64,000 nt of DNA from Martelella mediterranea DSM 17316 (GTDB lineage: Bacteria > Pseudomonadota > Alphaproteobacteria > Rhizobiales > Rhizobiaceae). The notes under the pieces are model-generated. The model had not been told where the DNA came from. It searched no databases and saw only the letters and a program-made list of their open reading frames with translations. Location of the stretch: positions 124,001-188,000 of the forward strand of contig NZ_CP020332.1 of NCBI RefSeq assembly GCF_002043005.1, given 5' to 3'. Shown here piece by piece: positions 20,770 to 52,238 of the stretch. A program made the translations under genes and the position numbers. Every line of letters starts with the position of its first letter. The first letter of the stretch is position 1.

Positions 20770-20800
20770 AGGTAACGACCTTCCAGCGCTGGAGGGTTCC
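20770..20800 (-). promoter_or_regulatory. CueR-type promoter of the DUF305 gene
   Basis: On the minus strand -35 GGAACC, 19-bp spacer, -10 TTACCT. The spacer holds the dyad ACCCTCC-AGCGCT-GGAAGGT. The -35 is weaker than at the other seven sites; the geometry is identical. Confidence 0.7.
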
Positions 20801-20833
20801 CAAGCTTTGGAAAGTCCAGATATGCGGCAGGCG

Positions 20834-21250
20834 TCAGGAATGGCGTCTGGTCGTGACCAGAAAGATGGTCGAAGCCGAACAGCTGATCAGCAAGAAACCG
20901 TTCAGCGCCTCAATCCCCGCCAGAAAGCGCAGATGACCTGTCGGATAGATGTCGCCCAGCCCAAGGGAAGAATAATTCACCACTGAGAAATAGAACACAT
21001 CCATGAACGAGTTCACGTCAGATTGCGCAAAACCGCCAATGCCCGTCGATTCGCCGATAAAGAAGCCGACCGCGTAGAGCCCTGCCTCGGCAATATGCGC
21101 GGCCGCCAGGACGTAAAGGGCGATCAACAGTGCACCTGTGCCGGTGATGTGCTTCCGGTCGGTAAGGTGCATGGCGAATGCCATCGCACGCGCATGCAGG
21201 CCGCCGCACAATCCGAAAAGAATGATGGCCAGCCCTGCAGCCAGTGTCAT
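20834..21250 (-). CDS. Two-helix potassium-channel-family protein
   Basis: 138-aa membrane protein with the 2TM ion-channel (PF07885-type) pore: helix, pore loop with SSLGLGDIYP in place of the usual T-x-G-Y/F-G-D filter, and a final helix (IEALNGFLLISCSASTIFL). Two further hydrophobic segments precede these. It starts 15 nt after cueR and is probably in the copA-cueR operon. The filter variant makes K+ selectivity uncertain. A role in membrane-potential or charge balance during copper export is possible but is my guess. Confidence 0.7.
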   Translation of the reverse strand: MTLAAGLAIILFGLCGGLHARAMAFAMHLTDRKHITGTGALLIALYVLAAAHIAEAGLYAVGFFIGESTGIGGFAQSDVNSFMDVFYFSVVNYSSLGLGDIYPTGHLRFLAGIEALNGFLLISCSASTIFLVTTRRHS

Positions 21251-21265
21251 ACGCGACTGTCCCTC

Positions 21266-21698: not shown

Positions 21699-24206
<2,508 letters not shown>

Positions 24207-24233: not shown

Positions 24234-24264
24234 AAGATAGGGGTTCCACCTGATGGAAGGTCAA
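24234..24264 (-). promoter_or_regulatory. CueR-type promoter of copA
   Basis: Minus strand: -35 TTGACC (24259-24264), 19-bp spacer, -10 TATCTT (24234-24239). The spacer dyad is CCTTCC-ATCAGGT-GGAAC. The 19-bp spacing is the hallmark of MerR-family promoters, and the box closely resembles the E. coli copA site. Confidence 0.88.
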
Positions 24265-24292: not shown

Positions 24293-24323
24293 TTGACCTT
24301 CCTGCGGTGGAAGACCTCACCTG
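24293..24323 (+). promoter_or_regulatory. CueR-type promoter of copZ
   Basis: Plus strand: -35 TTGACC (24293-24298), 19-bp spacer with CCTTCC-TGCGGT-GGAAG, then CACCTG as a poor -10. It is divergent from the copA promoter. copZ starts 24 nt beyond the -10. Confidence 0.75.
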
Positions 24324-24347: not shown

Positions 24348-24554
24348 ATGACCAGATTGAGCGTACCGGACATGAGCTGCGGGCACTGCACCGCTGCAAT
24401 CGAGAAGGCGATCAAGGCAATTGATCCAACCGCCAGGGTTTCCTGTGACCTTGGGGCGCATATTGTCGAGGTGGAGAGCTTTCTAAGCGAGCGGGCCGTG
24501 TCCGAAGCAATTCGCGATGCCGGCTATGATGCAAAAACACCGGCAGCGACCTGA
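24348..24554 (+). CDS. copZ: CopZ-like copper chaperone (HMA domain)
   Basis: 68-aa single heavy-metal-associated domain with the Cu(I) motif MSCGHC (residues 9-14) and a beta-alpha-beta-beta-alpha-beta pattern ending DAGYDA. It should carry cytosolic Cu(I) to CopA and help load CueR. A ribosome site GAAGGAGATA precedes the ATG. It is transcribed divergently from copA. The stop codon lies inside the first copy of a 16-bp tandem repeat. Confidence 0.92.
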   Translation: MTRLSVPDMSCGHCTAAIEKAIKAIDPTARVSCDLGAHIVEVESFLSERAVSEAIRDAGYDAKTPAAT

Positions 24555-24629: not shown

Positions 24630-25358
24630 TCAGTCGCTTTCCCGTGTCTTGTCGACCAGAGCCTCCAGTTGATCCTGTTCGACAAAGCCGGGCACGAGGT
24701 CGTCTCCGATCACGAAAGACGGTGTTCCGTTAAAGCCGAGCGCCTGGGACAGGCGCATCGACTCGTCGATATGCTCCTGCACTTCGGGTTCGTCCATATC
24801 GGTACGAAGTCGTTTGACGTCGAGCCCGATCTCCTCGGCCAGGCGCATGACCGATGCTTCCTCGGCACGTTCTTCCATACCCATCAGCGCCCAGTGAAAC
24901 TCCTCGTATTTGTCCTGTTCCCTCGCGGCCAGGGCGGCTTTGGCCGCGAAGACAGACCCTTCGCTGAGAATGGGCCATTCGCGATAGACGAGCCGGACAT
25001 CCTGGTCGGCATCGAGCAGCCCCTGAACCTCGGACATGGCCCGTCTGCAGTAGGGACAGTTGTAGTCGAAGAATTCCACGACCGTGACATCGCCGTCGGG
25101 ATTTCCGAGGACCGGCGCGTTCGGATCATGTTCGAGCGACTGGCGCTGGTTCTTCAGAACGTCGGCAGCTGCGTCTGCCTGCGTAGCCGCCTGCTGCTGT
25201 TCGAGCAACTGCACGGCTTCCATGATGATCTGCGGGTTTTCCCGGATCGCTTCCAGCGCCAGTTCCTTGATCCGAGCATCGCTCAGATCTTGCGCGAAGC
25301 CGGCAATCGGCGCGATAGCCAGACCAAGCGCCAGGGCTGTGGTTTTCATCGGGTGCAT
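24630..25358 (-). CDS. Periplasmic DsbA-family thiol oxidoreductase
   Basis: 242-aa exported protein. A signal peptide (ALALGLAIAPIAGFA) is followed by a helical N-terminal extension (to about residue 70, Gln/Ala-rich) and a DsbA-like thioredoxin fold with the active site FDYNCPYCRRA near 103 and the cis-Pro loop GFNGTPSFVIG near 210. The extension resembles the trimerising stalk of ScsC/DsbG-like disulfide isomerases, so it may be an isomerase rather than a DsbA oxidase. It is last in the eight-gene copper operon and could service Cys residues of the cytochromes or repair copper-damaged proteins. Confidence 0.85.
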   Translation of the reverse strand: MHPMKTTALALGLAIAPIAGFAQDLSDARIKELALEAIRENPQIIMEAVQLLEQQQAATQADAAADVLKNQRQSLEHDPNAPVLGNPDGDVTVVEFFDYNCPYCRRAMSEVQGLLDADQDVRLVYREWPILSEGSVFAAKAALAAREQDKYEEFHWALMGMEERAEEASVMRLAEEIGLDVKRLRTDMDEPEVQEHIDESMRLSQALGFNGTPSFVIGDDLVPGFVEQDQLEALVDKTRESD

Positions 25359-25360
25359 TG

Positions 25361-25840
25361 TCAATTTCCTTCTCTCTGGGCTTCGGCGGCGCTGCGTTCG
25401 GCCTGAATCTGCCGTTGCCGATCCGGCCATGTGGATTTGATATAGGCGAGGATATTCCAGATCTGATCGTCGGTCAGTTGGTCGCCGAAACCGGGCATGC
25501 CGCTTTCAAAATCGACGCCCTGTGCGGCGAGGGCCGCCTTGCCGCCGAGCTTGGTGTAGTCGAAGAGCACGCTGTCAGAATGGTGCCATGTATGACCCGT
25601 TTCGTCATGCGGTGGGGCGGGCAACACGCCAGCCGGGCCCGGTGAATGCCAGTCGGGCTGACCCTCGAGATTCGCGCCGTGGCAGGAGGCGCAGTAGCCC
25701 TGGTAGAGGTCCTCGCCCTGCGCCAGATCGAAGTCTTCCGGAGCAGCACTGGTTTGGGTGCCGGCCTGCGTCATGAGCCAGGCACCTGCTGCCGCACCGG
25801 ACACCAGAATGACGGTCAGGATCAGGTATTTCCGCATCAT
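25361..25840 (-). CDS. c-type cytochrome, membrane-anchored
   Basis: 159-aa mono-haem cytochrome c. An uncleaved N-terminal anchor (LILTVILVSGAAAGAWL) precedes the haem site YCASCHGANLEGQ near residue 50 and the Met ligand region SGMPGFGDQLTDDQIWNILAY near 118. The C-terminal tail is charged. The ATG at 25840 overlaps the multicopper oxidase stop codon, so translation is coupled. It may take electrons from the oxidase or pass them to a terminal oxidase; the partner is not shown by the sequence. Confidence 0.88.
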   Translation of the reverse strand: MMRKYLILTVILVSGAAAGAWLMTQAGTQTSAAPEDFDLAQGEDLYQGYCASCHGANLEGQPDWHSPGPAGVLPAPPHDETGHTWHHSDSVLFDYTKLGGKAALAAQGVDFESGMPGFGDQLTDDQIWNILAYIKSTWPDRQRQIQAERSAAEAQREGN

Positions 25841-27228
25841 GTCACCTCGAGCCACGTCATCATGCCCGAAGCCGCATGGCTCAGCATATGACAGTGAAAC
25901 AGCCATTTTCCCGGGTTGTCGGCGACAAAGGCAATGGTCCGGGTCTCGCCGCCGAACATCAGCAGCGTATCGCGGAAGGGACCAAGGGCCGCGTCCTTGG
26001 TCACCTCGCGGAAATGCATCCCGTGCAGGTGCATTGCATGGGGGAAGGACGTGTCGTTGTAGATTTCCAGCTTGATCGTCTCACCCACGGGCACGCTCAC
26101 GAGCGGGGTGTCGGTCATCCCGATCGTCCCGTTGAAGGACCAGAACTGGTTTGCCTCGACCAACTGGCGAAAGCTCTTGCGTTCGCCGTCGAGGGTGGCG
26201 GCATCGAGTGTGCCCATTGCCCCGCCCTGCATATTGAGCCGCGCCGTTACCGCTTTTTCCATGCCGGATATGTCCATGCGTGGGTTCGGGGGCAGGGGAT
26301 GTGGCGACCCGCGCCGCGCCGCCGCCGCGCGGCCCGATACCGGAAACGCCACCTGTGAGACGCCCTCCTGATCCTCGACGCGCACAAGATGCGCTGTCTC
26401 GCCCGACGCCGCTGTGACGTCCACGATCAGATCGGCGCGCTGGCCCGGCCCAATGATCAGCACCTCACTTACTGGCTTGGGCTCGGACAGCGGCATGCCA
26501 TCAAGGGCCACGGTCCAGCCTTCCATCCCGAAAATCGAAAGAACGAATATCCGGGCGTTGGCGGCATTGATCAGCCGCAGCCGCAGGCGTTCGTTCTGCT
26601 TCACGTCCAGCGACAGATCAAAGCGCCCGTTGGTGGCGATGAAGTTGCCGCGCCGCCCGGCATGGCTGCGATCATGGCGTGACGTGAAGTCGGGGTCGAT
26701 CTGTGCCGTTTCGGGATCGAGAAGCCAGTCGTCGAGGATCAATACCTCCTCGCGGTCGATATCCGGCGCCTCGGGCTCTTCCACGATCAGCGCACCATAG
26801 AGTCCGCGCGCGACCTGCTCGGTTGACCGGTTGTGCGCGTGATACCAGTAGGTGCCGGCGTCCGGCACCACGAAATCATAGTCGAAACCCTGTCCCGGTT
26901 CGACAGCTGGCTGCGTCAGCCCGGGAACCCCGTCCATCGCGTTGTCGATGCGGATCCCGTGCCAATGAACCGAACTTGCCTGCGGCAGTTCGTTCAGGAA
27001 CGATCTCTGGATGCGGGCGCCTTGAGCCATCCGCAACTCGGGTCCCGGCATCGCGCCGTCATAGCCCCAGATTTCAGTCTTGGGATAGGTTGGGGGTGCA
27101 AGTTGGACGCGCGCGGGCCGGGCCTTGAGTTCGGCAAAGCGTGGCGTTGCAGCACGCGCCAGGGCCGGAACGGCCAGAGCCGCAATCGTCGCCGCGCCCT
27201 GCTCAAGAAATTCTCGCCGTGTCGTCAT
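25837..27228 (-). CDS. Multicopper oxidase (CueO/laccase-like), Tat-exported
   Basis: 463-aa multicopper oxidase. The Tat signal TTRREFLEQ begins at residue 2. All four copper-binding segments are present: HWHGIRI and YWYHAHNRS in the N-terminal cupredoxin, HAMHLHGMHF and HCHMLSHAASGMM in the C-terminal one; the last supplies the type 1 copper ligands. Such enzymes oxidise Cu(I) to less toxic Cu(II) in the periplasm. The ATG at 27228 fits the Tat signal. It stands between two cytochrome c genes, which suggests a haem-linked electron path in addition to O2. A second, divergent oxidase is at 62532. Confidence 0.92.
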   Translation of the reverse strand: MTTRREFLEQGAATIAALAVPALARAATPRFAELKARPARVQLAPPTYPKTEIWGYDGAMPGPELRMAQGARIQRSFLNELPQASSVHWHGIRIDNAMDGVPGLTQPAVEPGQGFDYDFVVPDAGTYWYHAHNRSTEQVARGLYGALIVEEPEAPDIDREEVLILDDWLLDPETAQIDPDFTSRHDRSHAGRRGNFIATNGRFDLSLDVKQNERLRLRLINAANARIFVLSIFGMEGWTVALDGMPLSEPKPVSEVLIIGPGQRADLIVDVTAASGETAHLVRVEDQEGVSQVAFPVSGRAAAARRGSPHPLPPNPRMDISGMEKAVTARLNMQGGAMGTLDAATLDGERKSFRQLVEANQFWSFNGTIGMTDTPLVSVPVGETIKLEIYNDTSFPHAMHLHGMHFREVTKDAALGPFRDTLLMFGGETRTIAFVADNPGKWLFHCHMLSHAASGMMTWLEVT

Positions 27229-27277
27229 CTTTTCCGTGTCCTTGAAATGTGCGGGGCGATACGCCGCCCCGCCCGTG

Positions 27278-28219
27278 TCAATCGATGGTTTTGCCGATAC
27301 TCGGCGTCCCCGCCAAAGCCCTGCCTTCCGGTACATCGCTGTCGAGAAGATAGATCGCCATCGCTTTCAAATCGGACTTTGAGAGGAACCGCGTTCCGTT
27401 CTGGACAACCTCACCCATGCTGCCGCCGAACACGTCTCCTGACGGGGTAACACCACTTTGCAGAGCATATGACAGATTGGCGACGGTCCATCCGCGATCT
27501 GCCAGATCGTCGGACAGGATTGATGGTGCCTTGTTTCCACCGGGCAGGTCGTCGTTGCCGGCAAAAACGGCATCTGGCATCCGGCCGCCCGCGAGGTTCC
27601 GACCGGTGTGACAGGCCCCGCAATGGGCGGCGCCGCGCACGAGTTGCCGGCCGCGGTTCCAGTCGACGCTCTTTCCTTCCACCGGTTCGGTCTGCGGATC
27701 ATGCATGAAAAGCGCACGCCATAGTTTCAGGCCCCAGCGTTGGTTGAACGGGAAACCGACATCGTGCGGTGGTGCGGGGTTGGTTACCGGTGCGACGGTC
27801 TGGAATGCTGCCCACATATCGGCGACGTCCTGATCGGAAAAATCCGCATAGAACGGATAGGTGAATGCCGGAAACAAGGGCTCGCCATCGGGCGAAACGC
27901 CCTGCCTGACAGTCATCGCGAAGTCAGACAGGCTCCAGTCTCCGATGCCGTGCTCGGGATCGGTGGTTATGTTCGGCGGGTAGAAGACGCCAAACGGGGT
28001 TTCGAGCGGGGCACCGCCCGCCAGCGGAGCGCCGCCATCCTCGAAATTCGTGTGACAGGCGATGCAACCGCTCGCGCGCGCCAGATAGGCACCGCGCTGG
28101 ACATCGCCGGTCAACTCGATCTCGGCGGGCGGTCGGCCAATCGGCCAAACCACCAACGCCGCGATTGCCGCCGTGCCGGAAAGGGCAAGGACGGCAACAC
28201 CTGCAAGAACCCGCCTCAT
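27278..28219 (-). CDS. Di-haem cytochrome c
   Basis: 313-aa exported cytochrome with an N-terminal signal or anchor (VLAGVAVLALSGTAAIAALVV) and two haem sites, ASGCIACHTNFEDGG near residue 53 and AAHCGACHTGRNLAGG near 200, each followed by its own helical domain. The pattern matches di-haem subunits of alcohol/gluconate dehydrogenase-type or thiosulfate-dehydrogenase-like cytochromes. In this operon it probably carries electrons between periplasmic donors and the respiratory chain. It starts 1 nt after the cytochrome c' frame ends. Confidence 0.85.
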   Translation of the reverse strand: MRRVLAGVAVLALSGTAAIAALVVWPIGRPPAEIELTGDVQRGAYLARASGCIACHTNFEDGGAPLAGGAPLETPFGVFYPPNITTDPEHGIGDWSLSDFAMTVRQGVSPDGEPLFPAFTYPFYADFSDQDVADMWAAFQTVAPVTNPAPPHDVGFPFNQRWGLKLWRALFMHDPQTEPVEGKSVDWNRGRQLVRGAAHCGACHTGRNLAGGRMPDAVFAGNDDLPGGNKAPSILSDDLADRGWTVANLSYALQSGVTPSGDVFGGSMGEVVQNGTRFLSKSDLKAMAIYLLDSDVPEGRALAGTPSIGKTID

Positions 28220-28220
28220 G

Positions 28221-28806
28221 TCATTTCACCTTCGCGCGGAAGCGGGTGTGACAGGACGAACAGGTGTCGCTGACCTTCGCGAAAACCGCGTTGGCGGGCA
28301 TCTCGGCCAGTTCTTCGCGCCCCATCGTGTCATCGGCCATCATGTCACCACTGCCCATCATCGAGTTGGCTCCCATCATGTCGGAGCCGCCCATCATGGC
28401 GCTTGTATTCGACTTGGTGTCCGACTGACTTGCGGGTGCGTTGTCAGCGGCAAGAGCCAGGCCTTCGGCGTATCTGTGCAACTCCTCGGCCAGGCCTGCA
28501 AAGCTCTCCCAATCGTTCCATATGGCGTCTTTCGCGACCGATGGCATGCCTGCGCTGCCGTCCGGGAACAGACGGGTCATGGCATCGCCAGCGTGCATGC
28601 CGATGGTTTCCGCAGCGTGCCGCACGGTATCAGCATCATACCCCGTCTCGCCGCTCATCATCGGGGCGACCGTGTTTCACGGCCTTGCCCATTGCCGACA
28701 TCGCGTCCATGCGCTCCTTCACGATACCGGTCGCGCCGCTATGGGCGAGCGCCGCCGATGCCACGCCGACAAGCACGGCGGAAGTGATAATCCCTGTAGG
28801 TTTCAT
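28221..28806 (-). pseudogene. Cytochrome c'-like gene with a frameshift
   Basis: Read together, two frames give a cytochrome c': signal peptide (TSAVLVGVASAALA) from the ATG at 28806, first helix (GIVKERMDAMSAMGKAVK), then after a one-base shift near 28674 the sequence PMMSGETGYDADTV through to the C-terminal haem site CSSCHTRFRAKVK. Removing one base there (GTGAAACACGG to GTGAAAACGG on the minus strand) restores a full four-helix protein. A Met-rich insert with repeated MMG/MMA motifs lies near residue 140, unusual for this family and possibly copper-binding. Either a true pseudogene or a sequencing error. Confidence 0.75.
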
Positions 28807-28807
28807 G

Positions 28808-29146
28808 TCATTGTCCTTCAAATCCTGATTTCGAGACGGGTCCGATCACGTGAGGAGGCCGGACCTTCGTGGTCGCGGCACGCCTGACGGGGTGTGCGCG
28901 CTCTGAATCCACCGTGATCGCCGCAAGTGCGCAGTCAATTCCCGGATGGCAATGTCCGAATGCCTCCTGGATGACAGTATGATCTTCGCCATGATCATCG
29001 TCGACCACGGCGTGCGTTGAGCTTGTCGCGGCGGGAGCAGAAGAATGGGCTTCAGCGCCCTGAGGGGTCAAGCCGAATGCGAAAAGCGCGCAGAGAATCA
29101 TCGCGCGTAGCAAGCCGACAGGTTCGATTTTGCGTCTTTCGTTCAA
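28808..29146 (-). CDS. Small secreted His-containing protein, unknown function
   Basis: 112-aa protein with a signal peptide (AMILCALFAFGLTPQGAEA) and a mature part containing several His residues and a GHCHPGIDCALAAI segment with two cysteines, ending in a Pro-rich tail. I do not recognise the family with confidence; the layout resembles small DUF2946-like secreted proteins of copper clusters. Its stop overlaps the cytochrome c' operon and its start overlaps the preceding cytochrome stop (29143-29146), so it is co-transcribed with the CueR-controlled operon. Periplasmic metal binding is plausible. Confidence 0.6.
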   Translation of the reverse strand: MNERRKIEPVGLLRAMILCALFAFGLTPQGAEAHSSAPAATSSTHAVVDDDHGEDHTVIQEAFGHCHPGIDCALAAITVDSERAHPVRRAATTKVRPPHVIGPVSKSGFEGQ

Positions 29147-29601
29147 AAGATGCCGTTTTCCTTCTGAAGCTCACGAATGTAACGCGTGATCATTTTCACG
29201 TCGCCATCGGTCACACCCTCCACCGCCGGCATGTTGCCGAAGTTCCAGTGATGCGCACGGACGCCGTTTTTTGCCGCGAGGACGAATGCCATGTCGGAGT
29301 GATGGTTTGGCTCATAGGTCTTGTGTACAAGCGGTGGGGCGACGCCGTTCTGGCCCGCCGCATTCGCACCATGACACTCGGCGCATTTGGCGTCGAACGC
29401 CCGCTTTCCGATCTGCGCGTCCGCCGACAGTTCGGCGGGAAGCGCCACCTCGACGATCGGTGCGCCCTCGGCCAGGGTGCTGGTATCGGGCGGAATCATC
29501 GAATGGCCCGTGCCTTGCGTCGCCCGTTGCGTCGCATTCCAGTAGACCGCAAACCCCCCGACGAGAAAGAAGGCGACGATCGCCAGCAATGTCTTGTTCA
29601 T
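29143..29601 (-). CDS. c-type cytochrome, membrane-anchored
   Basis: 152-aa mono-haem cytochrome c: N-terminal anchor (LLAIVAFFLVGGFAVYW), haem site KCAECHGANAAGQNG near residue 73, and a NMPAVEGVTDGDV Met-ligand region near 125. It contains a His-rich loop (YEPNHHSDMAF). It resembles small cytochromes fused or paired with oxidases. It is the second gene of the copper operon, after the L,D-transpeptidase. The haem would need the Ccm machinery, part of which is encoded at 36567-40774. Confidence 0.88.
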   Translation of the reverse strand: MNKTLLAIVAFFLVGGFAVYWNATQRATQGTGHSMIPPDTSTLAEGAPIVEVALPAELSADAQIGKRAFDAKCAECHGANAAGQNGVAPPLVHKTYEPNHHSDMAFVLAAKNGVRAHHWNFGNMPAVEGVTDGDVKMITRYIRELQKENGIF

Positions 29602-29634
29602 ACTTTTCTTGCCCCTCGCAACCGAATGCTTCGG

Positions 29635-30210
29635 TCAAATAAGTTTGACCTGTGTACCAACCGGCGATCTGTCGAAAACCCCGACAATTTGTTCGTTATA
29701 AAGGCCGATACAGCCATTCGACGATTTGCGACCGATCTTGCGCGTGTCGTTGGTGCCGTGAATGCGATAGTACTGCCAACTCAGGTGCATGGCACGAATA
29801 CCCAGCGGATTGTCCGGCCCGGGCGCCACATAGCGCGGCAGCGTCGGATCGCGCTCGATCATCGAGGGTGTCGGCGCCCAATCGGGGGCCTCATCCTTGA
29901 AGACCACTTCGGTATAACCGCGGCGTGTCAGCTCGTCGGACAACGGCACCGAGGTGGGATAGATACGCATCTCCCCATCGGCAGTCCAATGCTGGAGCAC
30001 CCTGGTGTTCGTGTCCGAGAGCAGGATGCCTTTGCCAAGGCTGTCGAAGTGATCCTGCCAAGCGTGTAGCCGGAAGGAAGACATGTTGCGCCTCACCACG
30101 GACGCTTCCTCCGCCCGAAGGAGTGTTGGGGTCGCCAGCGCGATAACACCGCTGGCACCCGCCGCCAGAAATCCGCGCCGGTTGAGGGGCTTTTCGCCAT
30201 TTTTTATCAT
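29635..30210 (-). CDS. Tat-exported YkuD (L,D-transpeptidase-like) protein
   Basis: 191-aa protein with a twin-arginine signal (NRRGFLAAGASGVIAL) and a YkuD domain: the His of HGTNDTRKIG and nucleophile Cys of SSNGCIGLYNE near residue 168. L,D-transpeptidases cross-link peptidoglycan or attach proteins to it and are copper-sensitive at the Cys. The usual SHGC(I/V)R has Gly in place of Arg here, so activity may be altered. It is the first gene behind a CueR-type promoter and may help remodel the envelope under copper stress. Confidence 0.88.
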   Translation of the reverse strand: MIKNGEKPLNRRGFLAAGASGVIALATPTLLRAEEASVVRRNMSSFRLHAWQDHFDSLGKGILLSDTNTRVLQHWTADGEMRIYPTSVPLSDELTRRGYTEVVFKDEAPDWAPTPSMIERDPTLPRYVAPGPDNPLGIRAMHLSWQYYRIHGTNDTRKIGRKSSNGCIGLYNEQIVGVFDRSPVGTQVKLI

Positions 30211-30675: not shown

Positions 30676-30681
30676 GCCGGG

Positions 30682-42454: not shown

Positions 42455-43860
42455 GTCGTTGTCCTTTCCTGTTTCAGGGGTTCCGGTCCCAGCGGCAGCG
42501 TCACGGTCGCCACGAGGCCGCCTTCTGCCCGGTTGGTGAGGCCAATGTCCCCGCCATGCGCCCGGACGATCGTCCGGGCGATGGACAGTCCAAGTCCGGT
42601 GCCGCCGGTCTCTCTCGAGCGGGATTTCTCAAGCCTGAAATAGGGCTCGAAGACCTGTTCAAGCTCGCCGTCCGGTATACCGGGGCCATTGTCAGCGACG
42701 CGGATAATGGCGTGATCGTCCTCGCGTCCATAGCTGACATCAACCATTCCGCCATAGCGTTCGGCATTGTCGATGAGGTTGCGAAGCGCGCGCCGGACTG
42801 ATTGCGACCGCAAGCGCAGGTGAATGGTTTCGCCCTCCTTCAGAGAAAAACCGTTCAGCATATCGGCGCGGAGTTGACCCAGAAACGCGCCCATTTCGAC
42901 GGTCTCGTAGTCTTCCGAGCTTGTGATCCCGCGCGCGAAGGAAAGCGTCGAGTCCACCATCTCCTGCATCTCCTCGATTGAGGTTATGAGGCTGTCGCGT
43001 GTTTCCCGCTCGTCGACCATCTCCGAGCGAACGCGGAGTGCCGTGAGAGGCGAGCGCAGGTCATGTCCAAGGGCCGCGAGAAGCCGGGTCCGGTCCGCGA
43101 GGAAGCGGGTCAGCCGGGCCTGCATCCGGTTGAATGTCCGGGTCAGGTCGCGCACCTCGGCGGGTCCGATCAAGGGCAGTGGTCTGACATTTTCGCCGCG
43201 CCCGAGACTGTCGGCGGCACGGGACACGCGCAAGAGCGGGCCAGTCAGACGGGTCAGAAGAAACCAGCAGGCGGCAACAAGAATAATGGCAGCCGTGAGC
43301 CCGAAGCTCAGGAAAGAGGCCCAGGGCCATTGCAGGGGCGGGCGCTCGAACCGCGTGCCGACATTGAGCCACTGTCCGCCCGTCAGGGCGATGGACAGCT
43401 GCATCTCGATGGCCGACAGATCGCCCCGCATCATCGCCAGATGCATTTCCGCCATCTCGGGCGCCATATGCGGCATCGGAAGGATGCCGTGATCGACCTC
43501 GTGCACCTCCACGCGAATTTCACGGTTGTCCTTGGCTCCGAGAAGACCACGCACTCTTGCCTCGATAGCACCGCTGTCCGCGTGGCTGTCGTGATCGACG
43601 GTCGGTGTATCAGACAGGTCAAAGCGCACCAGCGGTGAATTCGCCGCGCGCAGAATGGCCGGTTCCAGCGTTGCCGGCGCTTCCTCGATCAACCGCGCGA
43701 CGTTCGCGGCCCGCCCCGCTGCCTCGAAGCCGAGCGCGGCCCGCACGGCCAGGCCGCGCTCGTCAACGAACAACCAGAGGCTGACCGCTTGGGCGGCGGC
43801 GAGTGCCGCGATGATTAACAGGACCAGTTGGCCGCGCAGACTGTCAAAGAAGCGCCACAT
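42451..43860 (-). CDS. Sensor histidine kinase, likely metal-responsive
   Basis: 469-aa membrane kinase: helix near residues 10-30, periplasmic sensor region (31-185), second helix (about 190-212), HAMP, H-box ALGHDLRSPLTALR near 263 and HATPase_c (NLIDNAERYGG, DNGPGIPD, GTGLGLSI). The periplasmic part has many His, Met and Asp (SHADSG, HEVDHGILPMPHMAPEMAEMH), which suggests Cu or Ag sensing as in CusS/CopS. The ATG at 43860 overlaps the regulator stop (ATGA). It should phosphorylate the adjacent regulator. Confidence 0.9.
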   Translation of the reverse strand: MWRFFDSLRGQLVLLIIAALAAAQAVSLWLFVDERGLAVRAALGFEAAGRAANVARLIEEAPATLEPAILRAANSPLVRFDLSDTPTVDHDSHADSGAIEARVRGLLGAKDNREIRVEVHEVDHGILPMPHMAPEMAEMHLAMMRGDLSAIEMQLSIALTGGQWLNVGTRFERPPLQWPWASFLSFGLTAAIILVAACWFLLTRLTGPLLRVSRAADSLGRGENVRPLPLIGPAEVRDLTRTFNRMQARLTRFLADRTRLLAALGHDLRSPLTALRVRSEMVDERETRDSLITSIEEMQEMVDSTLSFARGITSSEDYETVEMGAFLGQLRADMLNGFSLKEGETIHLRLRSQSVRRALRNLIDNAERYGGMVDVSYGREDDHAIIRVADNGPGIPDGELEQVFEPYFRLEKSRSRETGGTGLGLSIARTIVRAHGGDIGLTNRAEGGLVATVTLPLGPEPLKQERTTT

Positions 43861-44582
43861 CAATCCAACTCCGTCACATCGGCGGCAAGGCAATATCCGC
43901 CACCGCGCACGGTCGTGATCAGCCGGGGCCTGGATGGATCGGCCTCGATCTTTCTGCGAAGGCGGCTGATCTGATTGTCGATCGTCCGATCGAGCGGGGA
44001 GGCCGCGCGCCCTGCAGTGAGATCGAGAAGCTGATCACGGTTGAGGACGAGGCGGGGCCGTTCGAGCAAGACAACCAGAAGCTTGAGTTCCGAACCGGTG
44101 AGATCGATTTGCGCACCGTTTTCATCGGTCAACAACCGGCTGTCGGTATCGAGAGTCCATTGTGCGAATGCGATGCGTCTTCCCGAGAGTTTTCCGGCAT
44201 AGGTCTCGGGCAGGGATGAACGCCGCAGGATGGCCTTGATCCGCGCAAGCAGCTCTCGCGGATTGAATGGTTTGGCCAGATAGTCGTCCGCGCCGATTTC
44301 GAGCCCGACGATGCGATCCGTCTCTTCGCCAAGCGCCGTCAGCATCAGGATCGGTACGCCACCCGTGGATGACAGACGGCGGCAGACCGACAGCCCGTCC
44401 TCGCCGGGCATCATGACATCCAGAACGATCAGATCGTACTGACCCATCGCGAGCTTGGCGTCCATCTCGACCGCATCCCGCGCCGAGGTCGCACGCAGGC
44501 CGTTCTTCTCCAGATAGCGCGAAACCGAGTCTCGGATTTCGCGATGATCGTCGACGACGAGGATATGAGGCTGATCGTTCAT
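43860..44582 (-). CDS. OmpR-family response regulator
   Basis: 240-aa regulator with an intact receiver (VVDDHREIRD, phosphoacceptor in LIVLDVMMPGEDG near residue 55, Lys in LAKPFNP) and a winged-helix DNA-binding domain. Unlike the PhoB-like protein at 14852, all phosphorylation residues are present. The start at 44582 fits the receiver; upstream in-frame sequence is promoter DNA. It is divergent from the Met-rich EF-hand gene, whose upstream region contains matching direct repeats, so that gene is a probable target. Confidence 0.9.
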   Translation of the reverse strand: MNDQPHILVVDDHREIRDSVSRYLEKNGLRATSARDAVEMDAKLAMGQYDLIVLDVMMPGEDGLSVCRRLSSTGGVPILMLTALGEETDRIVGLEIGADDYLAKPFNPRELLARIKAILRRSSLPETYAGKLSGRRIAFAQWTLDTDSRLLTDENGAQIDLTGSELKLLVVLLERPRLVLNRDQLLDLTAGRAASPLDRTIDNQISRLRRKIEADPSRPRLITTVRGGGYCLAADVTELD

Positions 44583-45949: not shown

Positions 45950-45980
45950 TTGACCTTCCGGTCACTGGAGGGCGTATGCA
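45950..45980 (+). promoter_or_regulatory. CueR-type promoter of the membrane protein/VTT/lgt group
   Basis: Plus strand: -35 TTGACC (45950-45955), 19-bp spacer with CCTTCC-GGTCACT-GGAGGG, -10 TATGCA (45975-45980). It begins 12 nt after the DUF302 gene ends and 46 nt before the next start. Confidence 0.85.
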
Positions 45981-46025: not shown

Positions 46026-46466
46026 ATGGTGGCTGACAGCATCCAGGATACAGAAGAATCCCCAACCTTCGGCGAGGGCTTCTGGGGGCCTGGCGCTGTG
46101 GGTGCCGTCTTGTTTCTGATCGCCGCTCCGGTGCATCTACTGGTGCCCCATCAGATATCGGTGGCGATCGCCGCGGTAACGTTGGCGCTGATCGGCGGAG
46201 CCTACATCGGATTTGGTGCGACCGCCAATTCGCTGAAACGCTTTTTGGCGGAACTGGCGGTCGCAGCCCTGTTCGCGGCGACCGCGCTGGCCGGATTGCT
46301 CTGGGCTCCATTGGCCTTGCCTGTCGGGTTCGCCGCACATGCCGCGTGGGATCTTCTGCATCACAACAGGGTGTTCGGCGCGCCGGTCCCGCGATGGTAC
46401 ATTCCGTTCTGCGTCGTCTTCGAGCTGTTGGCGGCAGCTTTTCTCTTCGTGCTGTATGTGCCGTGA
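46026..46466 (+). CDS. Four-helix integral membrane protein, unknown function
   Basis: 146-aa protein with four hydrophobic helices (about residues 23-41, 45-64, 74-92, 120-143). A conserved-looking AAHAAWDLLHHNRVFG segment with three His lies between helices 3 and 4, and PHQI near helix 1. The His cluster may bind metal or haem. I do not recognise the family with confidence (some similarity to DUF6010-like proteins). It directly follows a CueR-type promoter and overlaps the VTT gene. Confidence 0.65.
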   Translation: MVADSIQDTEESPTFGEGFWGPGAVGAVLFLIAAPVHLLVPHQISVAIAAVTLALIGGAYIGFGATANSLKRFLAELAVAALFAATALAGLLWAPLALPVGFAAHAAWDLLHHNRVFGAPVPRWYIPFCVVFELLAAAFLFVLYVP

Positions 46467-47158
46467 GGCCGGGAATACCACGGTTCGTGTTCGGGCGAAC
46501 CGCACAATTGGTTGCTGCGGCACTGCTAATCTTCGCCATCGTCGCCCTGGCCTTGGGTCCGCTCGCCGACGTCATCGAGAGCTTCGACGGCGAGAGAATC
46601 TCCGGCTGGATCGAGGCTGCCGGCATATGGGGACCGATCCTCATCGTCTCGCTCATGACGATCGCGATCGTCGCGACGCCTATTCCGAGCGCACCGATCG
46701 CATTGGCGGCCGGTGCCGCCTACGGGCATACTTTGGGGACCGTTTACATCGTTGCCGGAGCCGAACTCGGCGCACTTGTCGCATTCGGATTGGCGAGGGT
46801 CCTCGGGCGCGACGTGCTCGTCGGATGGCTTGGCGACAAGGTGGATGCAGGCTGGCTCGGCTCTCAGAACGCTTTGACTTTCACCGTCTTCGCCAGCCGT
46901 CTGATGCCGTTCATCTCATTCGACATTGTCAGCTACGCGGCCGGGTTGAGCCGCCTTCACTTCTGGCGTTTCGCACTCGCCACGCTTGCGGGGATCATCC
47001 CGGCCAGCTTTGTGCTCGCCCATTTAGGCAACGAGGCGGTCAGTGGGCCTTCTTCCCGCGCAATCTGGGCCGCGATCGGGCTGGGAGCGTTGACGTTTGC
47101 ACCTCTTCTGATTGTCGCCGTCAGGGACTGGAAAAAGCACCGGATGACCCATGACTGA
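46463..47158 (+). CDS. VTT-domain (TVP38/DedA-like) membrane protein
   Basis: 231-aa membrane protein with the TVP38/TMEM64 core: AIVATPIPSAPIALAAGAAYG near residue 78 and FTVFASRLMPFISFDIVSYAAGLSRL near 140, the family's re-entrant-helix signature. DedA/VTT proteins flip or scramble lipids and some affect metal tolerance. The start is a GTG at 46463 overlapping the previous stop; the ATG upstream (46346) lies inside the preceding gene. Copper-inducible by position. Confidence 0.82.
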   Translation: MRPGIPRFVFGRTAQLVAAALLIFAIVALALGPLADVIESFDGERISGWIEAAGIWGPILIVSLMTIAIVATPIPSAPIALAAGAAYGHTLGTVYIVAGAELGALVAFGLARVLGRDVLVGWLGDKVDAGWLGSQNALTFTVFASRLMPFISFDIVSYAAGLSRLHFWRFALATLAGIIPASFVLAHLGNEAVSGPSSRAIWAAIGLGALTFAPLLIVAVRDWKKHRMTHD

Positions 47159-47263
47159 TCGCCGAAAATCTCGCCTGCCGTTTCGTCGACAGGCTTCCTA
47201 TCACCTCCGGCGCGCAGCCGCCGTGGCCAATCAACCGCAAACACCAGATCAGGACCTACAGAT

Positions 47264-48187
47264 ATGTTGACCGCCGCAATTCCATTTCCCAACATCGGCC
47301 CCGATCTTTTCTCTATCGAGATCGGCGGGTTCACGTTGGCGCTGCGCTGGTATGCGCTCGCTTACATCGTCGGTATCCTGATCGGCTGGCGCATCTGCGT
47401 CGCTGCCGTTGCGCGCCCTGCGCTGTGGCCCGCTGCCGGGCCGCCACTTGATCGCCGTCAGATCGAAGACCTGCTGACCTGGATCATTATCGGCGTGATC
47501 GCTGGTGGCCGACTGGGTTTCGTGCTGTTCTACCAGCCCGAATATTACCTGGCCAATCCGCTGGAAATACTCATGATCTGGCAGGGCGGCATGTCCTTCC
47601 ACGGCGGGTTCCTCGGCGTCGCCGTTGCTGGCCTGGCATATTGTATTCGTCAGAACGCATCCATGCTGAGCACGACCGATCTTCTGGCCATCGCTACACC
47701 ACCGGGGCTGTTTCTGGGGCGGATTGCGAATTTCATCAACAACGAACTCTGGGGGCGGCCCACGGACGTGCCTTGGGCCGTGATCTTTCCGGGCGAGGTC
47801 GCCCAGACCTGTCCGGGCATCACCTCGATATGTGCCCGCCACCCCTCGCAGCTTTATGAAGGTCTGCTCGAAGGGCTGCTGCTCGGGTTCATCCTTCTTT
47901 ACCTCGCCTGGCGCCGGGGCTGGCTCAGGATGCCCGGCGCGCTGACAGGTGTTTTCCTGACCGGCTACGGTCTTGCCAGAAGCTTTGTCGAGTTGTTCCG
48001 GCAGCCCGACATGCAGTTCGTGACCTCCGACAATCCGATCGGCCATGCCCTGCACTTCGGCGATTGGGGGCTGACGATGGGACAGGTTCTTTCTGCGCCA
48101 ATGATCCTGGTCGGGCTGGCGCTGATCCTTCGAGCGGTGAACGGATCCGGGGGCGCAACCGGGCAACGATCGAAAAAAACTGCCTGA
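47264..48187 (+). CDS. lgt: Prolipoprotein diacylglyceryl transferase
   Basis: 307-aa inner-membrane enzyme that lipidates the Cys of lipobox proteins. The signature [16 protein letters not shown] (about residue 145) with Arg, Asn and Glu is present, along with HGGFLG near 102 and the conserved [15 protein letters not shown] near 228. Length and about seven helices are normal. A copy on a mobile island is probably additional to the host's essential gene and may serve the lipoproteins encoded here, for example at 30682. Confidence 0.93.
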
Positions 48188-48225
48188 CCTCGGCAGCGAT
48201 CTGCAACTGGTGATTGGGAAATAGG

Positions 48226-48987
48226 ATGGCCGCAAAGTCACTTATGAATCGATTGGCGGCACCCATGAACTCGATCGTCCGTGGTACCGGGTCGATGCGA
48301 AGGTGGCGGAAAACGAAGTTTATGGGTCCAGTAATGAGACAATACGTCGGGCAAATGGGGGCATGGAATCTCACCGTTCTTGCCATCATAATTGCCTCTT
48401 GGGTCATATATAGATATTTTGCACCAAGTAACTGGCGGGAGTGGGCCAGTGCCGGGATCGTGCAAGCGTTTATCATTTCACTTTACGCCGAAATGTACGG
48501 CTTCCCTCTTACAGTATACCTTGCTGTTCGATTTTTCGGAATGGACAGGGGCGATCTCACGACCAACTTGTGGTCAAGCCTTCTGGGCTTCGACGAGGCC
48601 ATGGTTCTTGCAATGCTATTAGGCTATGCGCTCGCGCTGGTCGGCATTTGCCTCATAGTGGGAGGTTGGCGCGAACTCTACAGGAATCGAAAGAAAGGTA
48701 CCCTTGCGACGGGTCGCCTTTATAAATTTGTCCGGCACCCTCAATATTTGGGTCTGTTTATCGTCCTATTTGGAGAGGGAGTGGTGCATTGGCCAACACT
48801 ACTATCTGTTTCTTTGCTCCCGTTCATCATGTTCTTTTACATAGCATTGGCGAAAAGGGAGGAGGAGACTCTGGAACGATTGTTCGGCAAACAATATGCG
48901 CTGTATAAGCAGGATGTTCCTGCGTTTGTTCCGCGTTGGGATCAGCTTCGAGACGCTGTGATGATATGGATTTTGTTCCGAGACTAA
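48226..48987 (+). CDS. Isoprenylcysteine methyltransferase-like membrane protein
   Basis: 253-aa membrane protein. The C-terminal half has the PEMT/ICMT-type pattern (TGRLYKFVRHPQYLGLFIVLFGE, then EEETLERLFGKQYALYKQDVPAF), and the middle contains EMYGFPLTVYL. The paralogue at 54874 shows the same blocks. Members methylate small or lipid substrates; here the substrate is unknown. The true start is uncertain (48226, or an internal ATG at 48322). Base composition is visibly more AT-rich than the neighbours, and the gene's end abuts a truncated gene, so it looks like a separately inserted piece. Confidence 0.7.
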   Translation: MAAKSLMNRLAAPMNSIVRGTGSMRRWRKTKFMGPVMRQYVGQMGAWNLTVLAIIIASWVIYRYFAPSNWREWASAGIVQAFIISLYAEMYGFPLTVYLAVRFFGMDRGDLTTNLWSSLLGFDEAMVLAMLLGYALALVGICLIVGGWRELYRNRKKGTLATGRLYKFVRHPQYLGLFIVLFGEGVVHWPTLLSVSLLPFIMFFYIALAKREEETLERLFGKQYALYKQDVPAFVPRWDQLRDAVMIWILFRD

Positions 48988-48994
48988 ACGACAG

Positions 48995-49789
48995 ATGCGA
49001 CCGCCCCAGCCATTCGGCGGAGCAGATGTTCTGGTCTGCGAGTCCACCTATGGCAACCGGTCCCATTCCGACGTGGACCCAGAAGCCGAACTGGCACCGA
49101 TCCTCAAACGCACCTTTGCCCGCGGCGGCACGGTGCTGATCCCGTCCTTTGCCGTCGGACGGGTGCAGGGGCTGATGCTGCACATTGCGCGATTGATGGA
49201 GCGCGGCGATATTCCCTATGTCCCGGTGTTCCTCAACAGCCCGATGGCGGTGAATGCGACCGAGATCTATCACCGTCATCACGCCGAGCACCACGTCAGC
49301 CGCGAAGACTGCATTGCGATGTTCGAGATCGCCAAGAGGGTAAACACGGTCGAGCAATCCAAGGAGCTGAACACGCGCCAGGGCCCGATGATCATCGTCT
49401 CCGCCAGCGGAATGCTGACCGGCGGGCGTATCCTGCACCATCTGGCCAGCTTCGGCGGCGATCGGCGGAACGCGATCTTGCTCTCCGGTTTCCAGGCCGG
49501 TGGCACGCGCGGCGCGGCGCTGGCCGGAGGCGCGCGGACATTGCGCATGTTCGGACGGGAGTTCCCGATCGAGGCCGAAGTGGTTCAGCTCCAGTCCTTT
49601 TCCGGACATGCCGATGCCGATGAGATCCTGCGCTGGATGTCCGCCGGTCCCGCCCCCGAGATGACCTATCTCACCCATGGGGAACCTGTCGCCGCCGATA
49701 CCCTGCGATTTCGCGTCGAACACGAGCTAGGGCGATCCGTGCGCGTGCCCGAACATCTCGAACCCGTCTACCTGGACAGGCCGCGATGA
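48995..49789 (+). pseudogene. Beta-CASP metallo-beta-lactamase, N-terminally truncated
   Basis: 264 residues match the C-terminal half of bacterial beta-CASP nucleases of the YsnF/CPSF73 type: VLVCESTYGNRSH, GTVLIPSFAVGR, SASGMLTGGRILHHL, LLSGFQAGGTRG, LQSFSGHADADEI and LTHGEP. The metal-binding HxHxDH segment that should stand some 150 residues earlier is absent; the frame begins where family members are already in mid-domain. It should therefore be inactive as a nuclease unless the missing part is supplied. It overlaps the phosphorylase gene by ATGA. Confidence 0.8.
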
Positions 49790-51294
49790 CCGAAACGCTT
49801 GCCCTCGTTTCCTCCGGCATCGACACCTACCGGCAGCCGGTCGTCTATATGCAAGAAGACTGTCACATCTGCCGTTCCGAGGGGTTTGCTGCCCAGACAC
49901 GCATACGGATCGACCTGAAGGACCGCTGGATCATCGCGACCCTGAATGTCGTCGGCCGCGGAGCATGGCTTGCCGTGGACCAGGCGGCATTGTCCGTTTC
50001 CGCCTGGGCCGCGCTTGGCGCTGAGATTGGAGACGACGCCGCTTTCTCGCACCCTGAACCGCCCGCTTCCGCGTCTATGATCCGGGCGAAAGCCTATGGC
50101 GAAAGACTGGATCAGGCCGGTTTCGCAGGAATCGTCAGCGACACTCTCAACAGTCGGCTTTCGGATCTCGACCTTGCCGCCTTCGTGACCGCCTGCGCCG
50201 GCGACAGGCTGAACGAGGCCGAAACCGTGGCGCTGACCCGCGCCATGAAGGAAGCAGGGCAGACGCTCGACTGGGGGCAGCACACTGTCCTCGATAAGCA
50301 TTGCGTCGGCGGATTGCCGGGCAACCGCACGACACCCATCGTCGTCGCCATCGTCGCGGCGGCGGGGTATCTGTTCCCCAAGACGTCCAGCAGGGCGATC
50401 ACCTCGCCGGCGGGGACGGCCGACACGATGGAGGTCATGGCGCCCGTCGCGCTTGACGCCGCCGCGCTGCGCCGGGTGGTCGAAGCCGAGGGCGGTTGCC
50501 TCGTCTGGGGTGGCGGGCTCGCCCTCAGTCCTGCCGACGATCATTTCATCCGTGTCGAACGCCCCCTCGATTTCGACTCCACCGATCAACTCGTTGCGAG
50601 CGTACTGTCGAAAAAGGCGGCCGCCGGTGCCACCCATGTTCTGATCGACATGCCGGTCGGACCAACGGCCAAGGTGCGGTCTGCCGGAGCGGCGGAGGCT
50701 CTCGGGATACGGCTGTCTTCGGTGGCCAAGGCCTTGGGTCTGAACCTGGCGCTGCATATCAGCGACGGCATGGCTCCTGTGGGACGCGGCATCGGCCCGG
50801 CATTGGAAGCCATGGACGTGCTGGCGGTTCTGCGGCGCGCGCCGGACGCGCCTGTCGATCTGCGCGCACGGGCGCTGGATCTGGCCGGACATCTTCTAGA
50901 CCTGGCACCGGACGCCGTTGTGGGGCAGGGTCGGGTCCGCGCGCAGTCGTTTCTCGATAGTGGTGCAGCGGAGGCAAAGTTCATGGCAATTTGCGCGGCG
51001 CAGGGCGGTTTCCGCGAACCCGGAACCGCAGCGCAGCAGATCGAAATACGCGCCCCCCATGCGGGCCAGTTGACCGCCATCGACAACCGACGCATCGCAC
51101 GCATCGCCAAGCTGGCCGGTGCCCCGCGTCAGAAGAGCGCAGGCGTCCGCCTTCTGGTGCGGATCGGGGATCATATGGACAAGGGCCAGCCGCTCTATGA
51201 ACTCCATGCCGAGACACCAGGCGAACTGGCCTATGCCCTGGCCTATGCCGAGTCCCAGACCGGCGTGCTGACGCTGTCCGAGGCAGTGTCATGA
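49786..51294 (+). CDS. Thymidine/AMP phosphorylase-family enzyme
   Basis: 502-aa protein of the thymidine phosphorylase superfamily, in the branch with an N-terminal extension (about 90 residues) shared with archaeal AMP phosphorylases. Supporting motifs are the phosphate-binding KHCVGGLPGNRTTP near residue 167, TSPAGTADTMEVMAPV near 205 and SDGMAPVGRGIGPALEA near 325. It could release a base and form ribose-phosphate from nucleotides or nucleosides. It is coupled to the nuclease remnant upstream and the PRPP-synthetase-like gene downstream, a cassette also known from other proteobacteria. Confidence 0.88.
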   Translation: MTETLALVSSGIDTYRQPVVYMQEDCHICRSEGFAAQTRIRIDLKDRWIIATLNVVGRGAWLAVDQAALSVSAWAALGAEIGDDAAFSHPEPPASASMIRAKAYGERLDQAGFAGIVSDTLNSRLSDLDLAAFVTACAGDRLNEAETVALTRAMKEAGQTLDWGQHTVLDKHCVGGLPGNRTTPIVVAIVAAAGYLFPKTSSRAITSPAGTADTMEVMAPVALDAAALRRVVEAEGGCLVWGGGLALSPADDHFIRVERPLDFDSTDQLVASVLSKKAAAGATHVLIDMPVGPTAKVRSAGAAEALGIRLSSVAKALGLNLALHISDGMAPVGRGIGPALEAMDVLAVLRRAPDAPVDLRARALDLAGHLLDLAPDAVVGQGRVRAQSFLDSGAAEAKFMAICAAQGGFREPGTAAQQIEIRAPHAGQLTAIDNRRIARIAKLAGAPRQKSAGVRLLVRIGDHMDKGQPLYELHAETPGELAYALAYAESQTGVLTLSEAVS

Positions 51295-52238
51295 TCCTTG
51301 TCGCGTTTCCCGAGATGAGGCCGCTTGCCGAAGACCTGGCACTCGCGCTTGGGGCGGACCTGCTCGCTCTCGGCTGGCACCACTTCCCCGATGGCGAAAG
51401 CCTGATTTCGCTGCCCGGCGATCTGGACGGGGCCGATGTGGCATTTCTGGCGACTTTGCGCGATCCCGATCGCCTTGCCCTGCCCTTGCGCTTCGCCGCG
51501 GCGACGGCGCGCGAGATGGGCGCGCGTCGCGTCGGATTGATCGCGCCTTATCTTGGCTACATGCGGCAGGACCATCGCTTCGAGCGCGGGCAGGCGGTAA
51601 GCGCACCGCTGTTCGCGCAATTCCTGGGGGAAAGTTTCGACTGGCTGGTGACCGTGGATCCGCATCTGCACCGCATCGCGCGGCTGCAAAATGTCTTCCC
51701 GATGCCTGCCATTCGCGCCGTATCCGCCCCGCTGCTTGCGACCTGGATCAGCACGAACCTGCCAGACGCCGTTCTTCTGGGCCCTGACAGCGAAAGCCAA
51801 CAATGGGTGGCTGAGGTGGCCCGGCTGGCCGGACGGCCCTATGAGGTCTTGCGCAAGGTGAGATCCGGTGACCGCAGTGTCGATGTCAGTGTGCCCGAAA
51901 GCGCGGCGCTGCGCGAAGGCACACCGATGATCCTCGACGACATCGCGTCTTCGGGGTCCACGATGGCTCGTGCCGTCGAAAGGTTGCTTGCGGCCGGAAC
52001 CGCCGCGCCTGTCTGCCTGGCTATCCATGCGGTCTTTGCGCACGGCGCTCAGGACGCCATTCTGTCGGCTGGTGCGGCAAGGATCATCACCACCGACACC
52101 ATACCCCATCCAACGAATGCGATCGGAATTGCCGGTTTATTGGCCGAAGCGATCCTTTCTGTGGTGACAGCCCTTGACCTTCCAGTTGCCGGAACAATTA
52201 GGCTGGACCCGAATCACGCCGAGAGGACAACCGAATGA
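51291..52238 (+). CDS. prs: Ribose-phosphate pyrophosphokinase-like protein
   Basis: 315-aa PRPP-synthetase family member. Evidence is the N-terminal HHFPDGESL near residue 31, the [23 protein letters not shown] block near 85, the TVDPHLHR metal site near 120 and the PRPP loop [13 protein letters not shown] near 214 (usual consensus DDxxxTGxT). It would form PRPP from ribose 5-phosphate and ATP, or use a related ribose phosphate from the phosphorylase upstream. The gene's last 60 nt contain the CueR-type promoter of the next gene, whose ATG overlaps its stop. Confidence 0.85.
52174..52204 (+). promoter_or_regulatory. CueR-type promoter inside prs, for the CopB-like ATPase
   Basis: Plus strand: -35 TTGACC (52174-52179), 19-bp spacer with CCTTCC-AGTTGCC-GGAAC, -10 TAGGCT (52199-52204). 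It lies within the last codons of prs, 31 nt before the ATPase start. Confidence 0.85.

Follow-up and report, generated by a model that had tools for sequence, protein, structure and literature searches.

A copper island on a plasmid of Martelella mediterranea DSM 17316 raises the question of whether one copper sensor of the CueR type can govern a large set of promoters, and whether these promoters share a single operator geometry. The window analysed here is the whole stretch of 64,000 nucleotides at bases 124001-188000 of the 258.6-kb contig NZ_CP020332.1, in a genome of 5.69 Mb in four contigs; the plasmid-borne island carries copper-defence genes and its own cueR. The initial annotation had described eight CueR-type promoters here, each with a -35 element related to TTGACC, a spacer of exactly 19 bp and a CCTTCC-N6/7-GGAAGG-like dyad, as one copper regulon of roughly 30 genes. 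We found that the sites are real and that a large regulon is plausible. The claim of a uniform 19-bp motif is mistaken, but interestingly so, and the detail "N6/7" is the main finding, since the predicted operators fall into two classes, CCTTCC-N7-GGAAGG, which is the published CueR geometry, and CCTTCC-N6-GGAAGG (below N7 and N6, for the bases between the arms).

All eight sites are present in the DNA (Table 1). Sites were scored with TTGACCTTCC plus GGAAGG at the N6 or N7 distance (maximum 16), and places reaching at least 14/16 were counted. The window holds seven such places, compared with on average 0.07 and never more than 1 in 200 dinucleotide shuffles, and chance is thus excluded as their source; the place at 45410, with a score of 13, is not included among the sites. 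Each of the eight sites precedes and points into a gene or operon, with 55-76 bp between the -35 element and the start codon. Over all loci compared, the median of this distance was 56-70 bp for copA, copZ, the second ATPase, DUF2933, the L,D-transpeptidase and ccmF, and 45 bp (N7) or 27 bp (N6) for DUF6010. A scan with the plain dyad and three mismatches was not clearly above chance (40 against a shuffle mean of 34.1, and 38 against 33.6), and it was therefore replaced by the score that adds the -35 element, where the signal lies. Genome-wide there are three N7 matches with at most one mismatch, one of them in the window, and ten N6 places with at most two mismatches, four of them in the window, which makes up 1.1% of the genome; at three mismatches N6 showed no genome-wide excess (69 against 64 in the reversed control). 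Among seven other stretches of the same genome (128 kb), three held no place of at least 14/16 and four held one each, these four having been chosen because they contain a pattern match. Two other good N7 sites of this genome lie before a copper ATPase gene and before a copZ/copA pair (open reading frames by reading).

The two classes became evident in related islands. We compared 80 loci (1.55 Mb) around related L,D-transpeptidases in GTDB genomes, the best 80 of 538, with the same DNA read backwards as the control. At the threshold of 14/16, there were 113 N6 and 127 N7 matches in the loci and none of either in the control. The other centre lengths gave the following counts, with the control in brackets: N5 3 (6), N8 0 (0), N9 0 (0), N10 3 (0), N11 1 (0), and N3 21 (0) and N4 7 (1), the last two from 8 and 1 distinct sequences; the stray matches at N3, N4, N5, N10 and N11 are partly runs of G. 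Sixteen N6 matches reach the full 16/16, and N6 is kept over strongly diverged islands. The dyads of the eight window sites are of two kinds instead of one: the odd, 21-bp N7 operator is found at 24234, 45950 and 52174, and the sites at 20770, 24293, 30249, 30327 and 40807 depart from it as N6.

The classes sort by operon, not strictly by compartment. For the assignment to genes, distinct 40-mers were counted in 88 loci (the window, seven plasmid loci and the 80), leaving out score-13 matches without a neighbouring known gene and a Martelella plasmid locus (L024) that repeats the window. The distinct sites of copA comprise 36 N7 and two scored as N6, of which one (L063) is a tie and the other (L033) lies in a run of G (N6 14, N7 13). 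N7 was also found at all eight sites of the second ATPase and at both sites of cueR. The L,D-transpeptidase is N6 at 23 of 23 sites and ccmF at six of six, and DUF2933 has 31 N6, two scored N5 and no N7. DUF6010 has five N7 and two N6 of score 13, and copZ uses both (21 N7, 18 N6, 1 N5 and 1 N8; n = 41). A further 12 distinct sites have no assigned gene (8 N6, 3 N7, 1 N5), and a few lie at other genes, two N8 being at a kinase gene. The same sorting appears when the loci are grouped into 21 clusters by CopA at 90% identity: copA is N7 in 19 clusters and N6 in two (the tie and the G-run site), the second ATPase N7 in five, the transpeptidase N6 in eight, DUF2933 N6 in 12, ccmF N6 in four, and copZ N7 in 13 and N6 in nine. 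Dyads of at least 11/12 were found at 7 of 27 distinct DUF305 promoters (window included), all N6 and with 0/27 in the reversed control, and at 5 of 20 distinct ccmF promoters.

Beyond the dyad itself, the eight promoters probably fall into three layouts; the counts omit sites not starting with TTGA, CTGA or TCGA (one of 23 transpeptidase sites and one of 31 N6 sites of DUF2933). N7 promoters have the right arm, two bases and then a good -10 element (layout I), and in copA the A at the second -10 position is present at 38 of 38 sites. The N6 promoters of copZ, DUF2933 and ccmF have the right arm, three bases and then a -10 element that starts 19 bp after the -35 element (layout II), with the key A at this distance in 18/18, 28/30 and 6/6 sites, respectively. 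The centre of these promoters has thus lost one base with the -35/-10 distance kept, the downstream arm alone being shifted up by 1 bp. The final T of the -10 element is present in 0/18 copZ N6, 3/30 DUF2933 and 0/6 ccmF sites, and in 12/38 copA sites; according to the part of the published work considered here, most alphaproteobacterial promoters lack this -7T (PMC8407463). In the transpeptidase promoters (layout III), a conserved -10-like A lies 2 bp further down in 21 of 22 sites and the dyad is mostly followed by TSGTT, much of which the DUF305 promoters share; the -10 element of both groups seems to lie elsewhere than at 19 bp. The spacing of exactly 19 bp is therefore supported at six window sites (copA, copZ, DUF2933, ccmF, DUF6010 and the second ATPase), is not supported at the transpeptidase site, and is ambiguous before DUF305, where TTACCT or TACCTT can be read at 19 or 20 bp. 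A -35 element related to TTGACC is found at seven sites; before DUF305 it is the weak GGAACC, though the dyad is conserved. What survives of the original proposal is a multi-operon CueR-type regulon in one mobile island, which the site statistics, orientation and conservation support well without its uniform motif and which would include unusual targets (ccmFGHI, L,D-transpeptidase, CDF exporter, lgt).

Outside these islands, the shorter class is scarce. Among the matches listed for 387 alphaproteobacterial genomes, exact N7 dominates and N6 is rare, with at least 13 N6 places outside the own genome, one N5 and one N8; the reversed control gave 18 matches over all four lengths. Seven of the 13 listed N6 places precede copper-type genes (open reading frames judged by eye), namely a cytochrome c like that of the island, small His-rich secreted proteins and copZ; five of the seven are secreted or envelope proteins, and the other six places look like background. 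In 397 Pseudomonadota genomes, exact N6 was near background (10 places outside the own genome versus 4 in the control), and one of the ten lay outside Alphaproteobacteria.

Which regulator would read the sites? The cueR gene, first annotated as central, sits close to the left edge of the stretch. Its product scores 162.3 bits with TIGR02044 (cut-off 147.4) and thus passes the NCBIfam equivalog model; residues 1-126 align with E. coli CueR 1q05, and the two metal-binding cysteines are seven residues apart, CAGDHRPDC aligning with CPGDDSADC. Control by CueR is plausible on two grounds: the regulator passes the CueR model, and Roseobacter-group genomes contain the island together with its sites. 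A single CueR gene above 120 bits was found in 76 of 79 CueR-bearing loci, and annotated plasmid islands have one cueR each, except for a Roseovarius indicus plasmid (L021) with cueR at 3581-4009 and 20984-21403 in two neighbouring copper clusters; on this plasmid, an N7 site at L021:3524 precedes a cueR itself. We also sought a CueR subtype that would explain N6 in 50 distinct CueR sequences, with loci labelled by N6 presence while ignoring copA sites and score-13 copZ sites, and found neither an insertion confined to one class nor any fixed difference; residue frequencies differ at four positions.

Two genomes are informative here. Defluviimonas salinarum (G406) has one close CueR (75% identity), its next MerR-type matches being at 31 and 33%, and both classes are present. 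A Roseovarius metagenome-assembled genome (G390) has one intact CueR (90%) and both classes (N6 before the transpeptidase gene and copZ, N7 before copA and the second ATPase gene), and no homologue of the island response regulator at 1e-50; it is the exception among 14 genomes checked, since the other 13 have this homologue. The former genome argues against a second CueR-like reader and the latter against the response regulator, although neither suffices alone. Taken together, they make one CueR for both classes the simplest reading, which remains an inference, as more than one CueR-like match at 1e-12 was found in 45 of 46 genomes. In M. mediterranea itself, the chromosomal CueR, which is 57% identical to the island CueR and also above the CueR cut-off, could contribute to the control of these sites. 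A further CueR/CadR-like MerR gene lies left of the window (C3:119832-120209; 41% identical, under all NCBIfam cut-offs).

The candidate sites, their two classes, the sorting by gene, the conservation and the coexistence of both classes in genomes with few candidate regulators are properties of the DNA itself. From these we consider it likely that the island is a self-contained plasmid CueR regulon, in which one Cu(I)-responsive CueR would use operators of two dyad lengths. MerR-family activators are the textbook case of exact spacing being decisive, and with a dyad shorter by 1 bp the half-sites start out nearer to each other by one base-pair step and a rotation of about 34 degrees (general B-DNA values). 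CueR, encoded behind copA, would be seated between the -35 and -10 elements of about eight promoters and would switch them on by DNA distortion, as in the published MerR/CueR mechanism. N7 operators would serve the Cu(I) ATPase genes as well as the DUF6010-lgt operon, N6 operators would serve most envelope genes (those for the oxidase, the cytochromes and their maturation, disulfide proteins, L,D-transpeptidase and DUF305), and copZ could be under either length. We infer that CueR would bind, and copper would induce, both classes, and that shortening the dyad would alter the affinity or the off/on balance, making the classes respond at different copper levels. Either the active, contracted CueR may fit N6 better and change the on/off ratio, or N6 may be bound more weakly and act as a late promoter. 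In its most specific form, this would be an address code of two lengths, with a 7-bp centre for copper efflux and a 6-bp centre for most envelope promoters, giving one sensor two response curves; we put this forward tentatively, as somewhat less likely than not, since the DUF6010-lgt operon and copZ break a strict split and G390 has a second CueR-like frame.

Several observations weigh against one CueR with two purposeful dyad lengths. The DUF6010-lgt operon is envelope-type yet mostly N7, cytoplasmic copZ is N6 at 18 of 41 distinct sites, and 14 of 79 CueR-bearing loci have no N6 site. The -10 elements of N6 promoters are poor by E. coli standards, though the -7T is absent from most alphaproteobacterial promoters (PMC8407463), and N3 and N4 matches exceed their control. 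The class label of copZ switched about three times on the CopA tree, one switch resting on an ambiguous site (L065); of the 80 labelled loci, this tree omitted 12, in which CopA was too short, was not found or lay at least 400 bp from the site, as well as 17 duplicates. With so few switches, many rows repeat few events. The two informative genomes are not perfectly clean either, since G406 also has the island response regulator (79%), and G390 is a metagenome-assembled genome with an interrupted CueR-like frame (C2:365948-366172; 59%, residues 42-116, one stop), which could be a pseudogene or a sequence error; the multiple CueR-like matches in nearly all genomes count on the same side.

Some of these points suit an ordinary large CueR regulon, in which the half-site distance is neutral, CueR tolerates 6 or 7 bp, and the sorting reflects inheritance. 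The class of each operon may have been fixed once and then passed on, which agrees with the use of both classes by copZ, the rarity of its label changes and the violation of any compartment rule by the DUF6010-lgt operon. This account is a serious contender whose chance falls only somewhat short of even; it has difficulty with the fixed 19-bp position of the -10 element despite the shifted arm, a combination that a single indel does not produce, and with the copper-type genes behind seven of the 13 listed N6 places outside the own genome, of which the other six resemble background. It is unlikely that the N6 sites belong to another regulator, whether a different MerR-type protein or the island response regulator, such that two regulons overlap. 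A 1-bp change does rotate one half-site by about 34 degrees (the general B-DNA value). The sections considered here of a large MerR census treat the distance from the site centre to the -35 element as fixed within a subfamily (PMC5045206). Candidates also exist, namely the second MerR-type gene just left of the window, the response regulator in 13 of 14 genomes and the additional CueR-like matches in 45 of 46. Against this stand the presence of both classes in G406 with one close CueR and in G390 with no close response regulator (notwithstanding its interrupted second frame), the single cueR of every annotated plasmid island but L021, and the response regulator promoters themselves, where no CueR-type dyad of at least 11/12 was found among 32 distinct promoters (control 0). 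Still more improbable is that N6 sites are degenerate, partly decayed CueR sites giving repression or weak basal control and no real activation. Their weak -10 elements, the two of five window N6 sites that do not clearly fit 19 bp, and the repress-only CueR control that Permina et al. suggested for a Vibrio cytochrome gene (PMC1526738) would agree with decay. However, N6 dyads reach perfect scores and are conserved over strongly diverged islands, and decay predicts N5 and N8 as well, which do not exceed their controls; N3 and N4 do, from few sequences.

If one CueR does read both classes, this would be a second conserved half-site distance within one CueR regulon, with 19 bp held in three N6 groups, and dyad length could thus be uncoupled from promoter spacing. 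The DNA-distortion model would then be directly testable with natural promoters. According to the sections considered here, MerR-type activators untwist or distort the spacer and bring the -35 and -10 elements into register, and the census, based on a CueR motif of 21 bp, discarded any site with its centre at a distance other than 7 bp from the -35 element (PMC5045206); N6 sites would therefore have been left out, and a census of one geometry would miss this portion of such regulons. The literature searches found no description of an N6 CueR class, which is a weak negative.

The genes behind the sites are collected in Table 1. By contiguity, 35 genes follow the eight sites in predicted operons, compared with the roughly 30 first proposed, with co-transcription being predicted. 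The two-component system scores best to OmpR/EnvZ models, not to CusRS/CopRS models, despite its location in a copper island. Within the transpeptidase operon, a cytochrome c' gene (28221-28806) seems to be split or to carry a frameshift when set against its 594-bp homologue in Dinoroseobacter shibae (L017:7680-8273). The beta-CASP nuclease-like gene (48995-49789) has a shortened start, being 795 bp long versus 1383 bp in Paracoccus aerodenitrificans (L023:8583-9965), and the gene preceding it differs between the two loci, as if recombination had fused two operons. In both loci, the thymidine/AMP-phosphorylase-like and PRPP-synthase-like genes (49786-52238) are tightly linked to the second copper ATPase.

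Table 1. Predicted CueR-type sites and genes of the copper island (window positions; layouts as defined in the text)
Feature	Position	Strand	Details
DUF305 membrane protein	19859..20740	-	CopM-like region, under CopM cut-off
Site before DUF305 gene	20770..20800	-	N6 dyad CCCTCC-AGCGCT-GGAAGG, 11/12; layout III
Ion channel gene behind cueR	20834..21250	-	PF07885
cueR, 139 aa, CAGDHRPDC metal loop	21266..21685	-	TIGR02044
copA, Cu(I) P-type ATPase	21699..24206	-	domain/profile matches
Site before copA	24234..24264	-	N7, TTGACC-19-TATCTT; layout I
Site before copZ	24293..24323	+	N6, TTGACC-19-CACCTG; layout II
copZ, small HMA chaperone	24348..24554	+	annotated in relatives as heavy-metal-associated domain protein
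L,D-transpeptidase, cytochromes c, multicopper oxidase, ScsC/DsbA-type operon	24630..30210	-	domain matches
Site before L,D-transpeptidase/cytochrome/multicopper oxidase operon	30249..30279	-	N6; -10 probably not at 19 bp; layout III
Site before DUF2933-DsbA-DsbD-CDF operon	30327..30357	+	N6, TTGACC-19-TAGCCC; layout II
DUF2933, small lipoprotein-like, DsbA, DsbD, CDF, hypothetical, EamA	30388..36530	+	domain matches; small open reading frame by reading alone
ccmF, ccmG, ccmH, ccmI	36567..40774	-	domain matches
Site before ccmFGHI	40807..40837	-	N6, TTGACG-19-CATGCA; layout II
Two-component system	42451..44582	-	best scores to OmpR/EnvZ models, under their cut-offs
Site before DUF6010-VTT-lgt	45950..45980	+	N7, TTGACC-19-TATGCA; layout I
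DUF6010, VTT, lgt, methyltransferase, shortened beta-CASP protein, thymidine/AMP-phosphorylase-like, PRPP (phosphoribosyl pyrophosphate)-synthase-like	46026..52238	+	domain matches
Site before HMBD-type copper ATPase, within end of preceding gene	52174..52204	+	N7, TTGACC-19-TAGGCT; layout I
Second copper ATPase with HMBD domains	52235..54589	+	domain/profile matches

The island, which is found in marine bacteria, appears to travel from one bacterial order to another as a unit of copper defence that brings its regulator along. It was found again, with its sites, in Roseobacter-group genomes, and an identical L,D-transpeptidase occurs in 2 of 12 other species of the own genus searched. Among named sequences, a Martelella lutilitoris plasmid matches the island best, being 100% identical over the 24.9 kb compared. 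Two records of 166,348 bp each, CP070277.1 and NZ_CP066787.1, match the query at 100% identity over 80% and 100% of its length and are assigned to a Dysgonomonadaceae bacterium and to M. lutilitoris, respectively, both from a cold seep; a mixed culture or an assembly mix-up seems likely behind this pair. In the Martelella plasmid locus L024, an arsenic operon (5507-8333; arsR-type regulator, arsC, arsH and transporter) adjoins the copper island.

The published signals place the N7 class on familiar ground. Both the CueR signal ACCTTCCC-(5)-TGGAAGGT and the HmrR signal ACCTTCCAG-(3)-CTGGAAGG are N7, and single-base insertions or deletions in such spacers are reported to harm regulation (PMC1526738). 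The E. coli CueR regulon (copA, cueO) resembles the island in its TIGR02044 CueR, 19-bp spacer (supported at six of the eight island sites), CCTTCC...GGAAGG operator, and Cu(I) ATPase and multicopper oxidase targets, but it is chromosomal and has an N7 signal and few targets, whereas the island has N6 at its oxidase operon and about eight promoters. The CueR regulon of Pseudomonas aeruginosa likewise has several separate promoters under one CueR, including those of copZ and copA. The part of the report considered here attributes five DNA binding sequences to it and lists 11 genes, among which cytochrome maturation, L,D-transpeptidase and lgt do not appear (PMC7922089); by this measure, calling the island one of the largest CueR regulons is fair, although it falls short of proof. 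CueR sites before cytochrome genes were already proposed in Vibrio (PMC1526738), and cytochromes as CueR targets are therefore not new in kind. HmrR/ActP comes closest in lineage, as HmrR is the alphaproteobacterial CueR orthologue with an N7 operator, occurs also on Sinorhizobium plasmids and is usually the second gene of an ATPase-regulator operon (PMC1526738); unlike the island, neither an N6 class nor envelope operons are described for it in the sections of PMC1526738 considered here. Finally, the mer operator of MerR also has its dyad between the -35 and -10 elements with a 19-bp spacer, and its dyad is of even length (7-4-7; PMC1526738), as is the N6 class, but it differs in half-site and metal, and each branch of the family has one dyad length.

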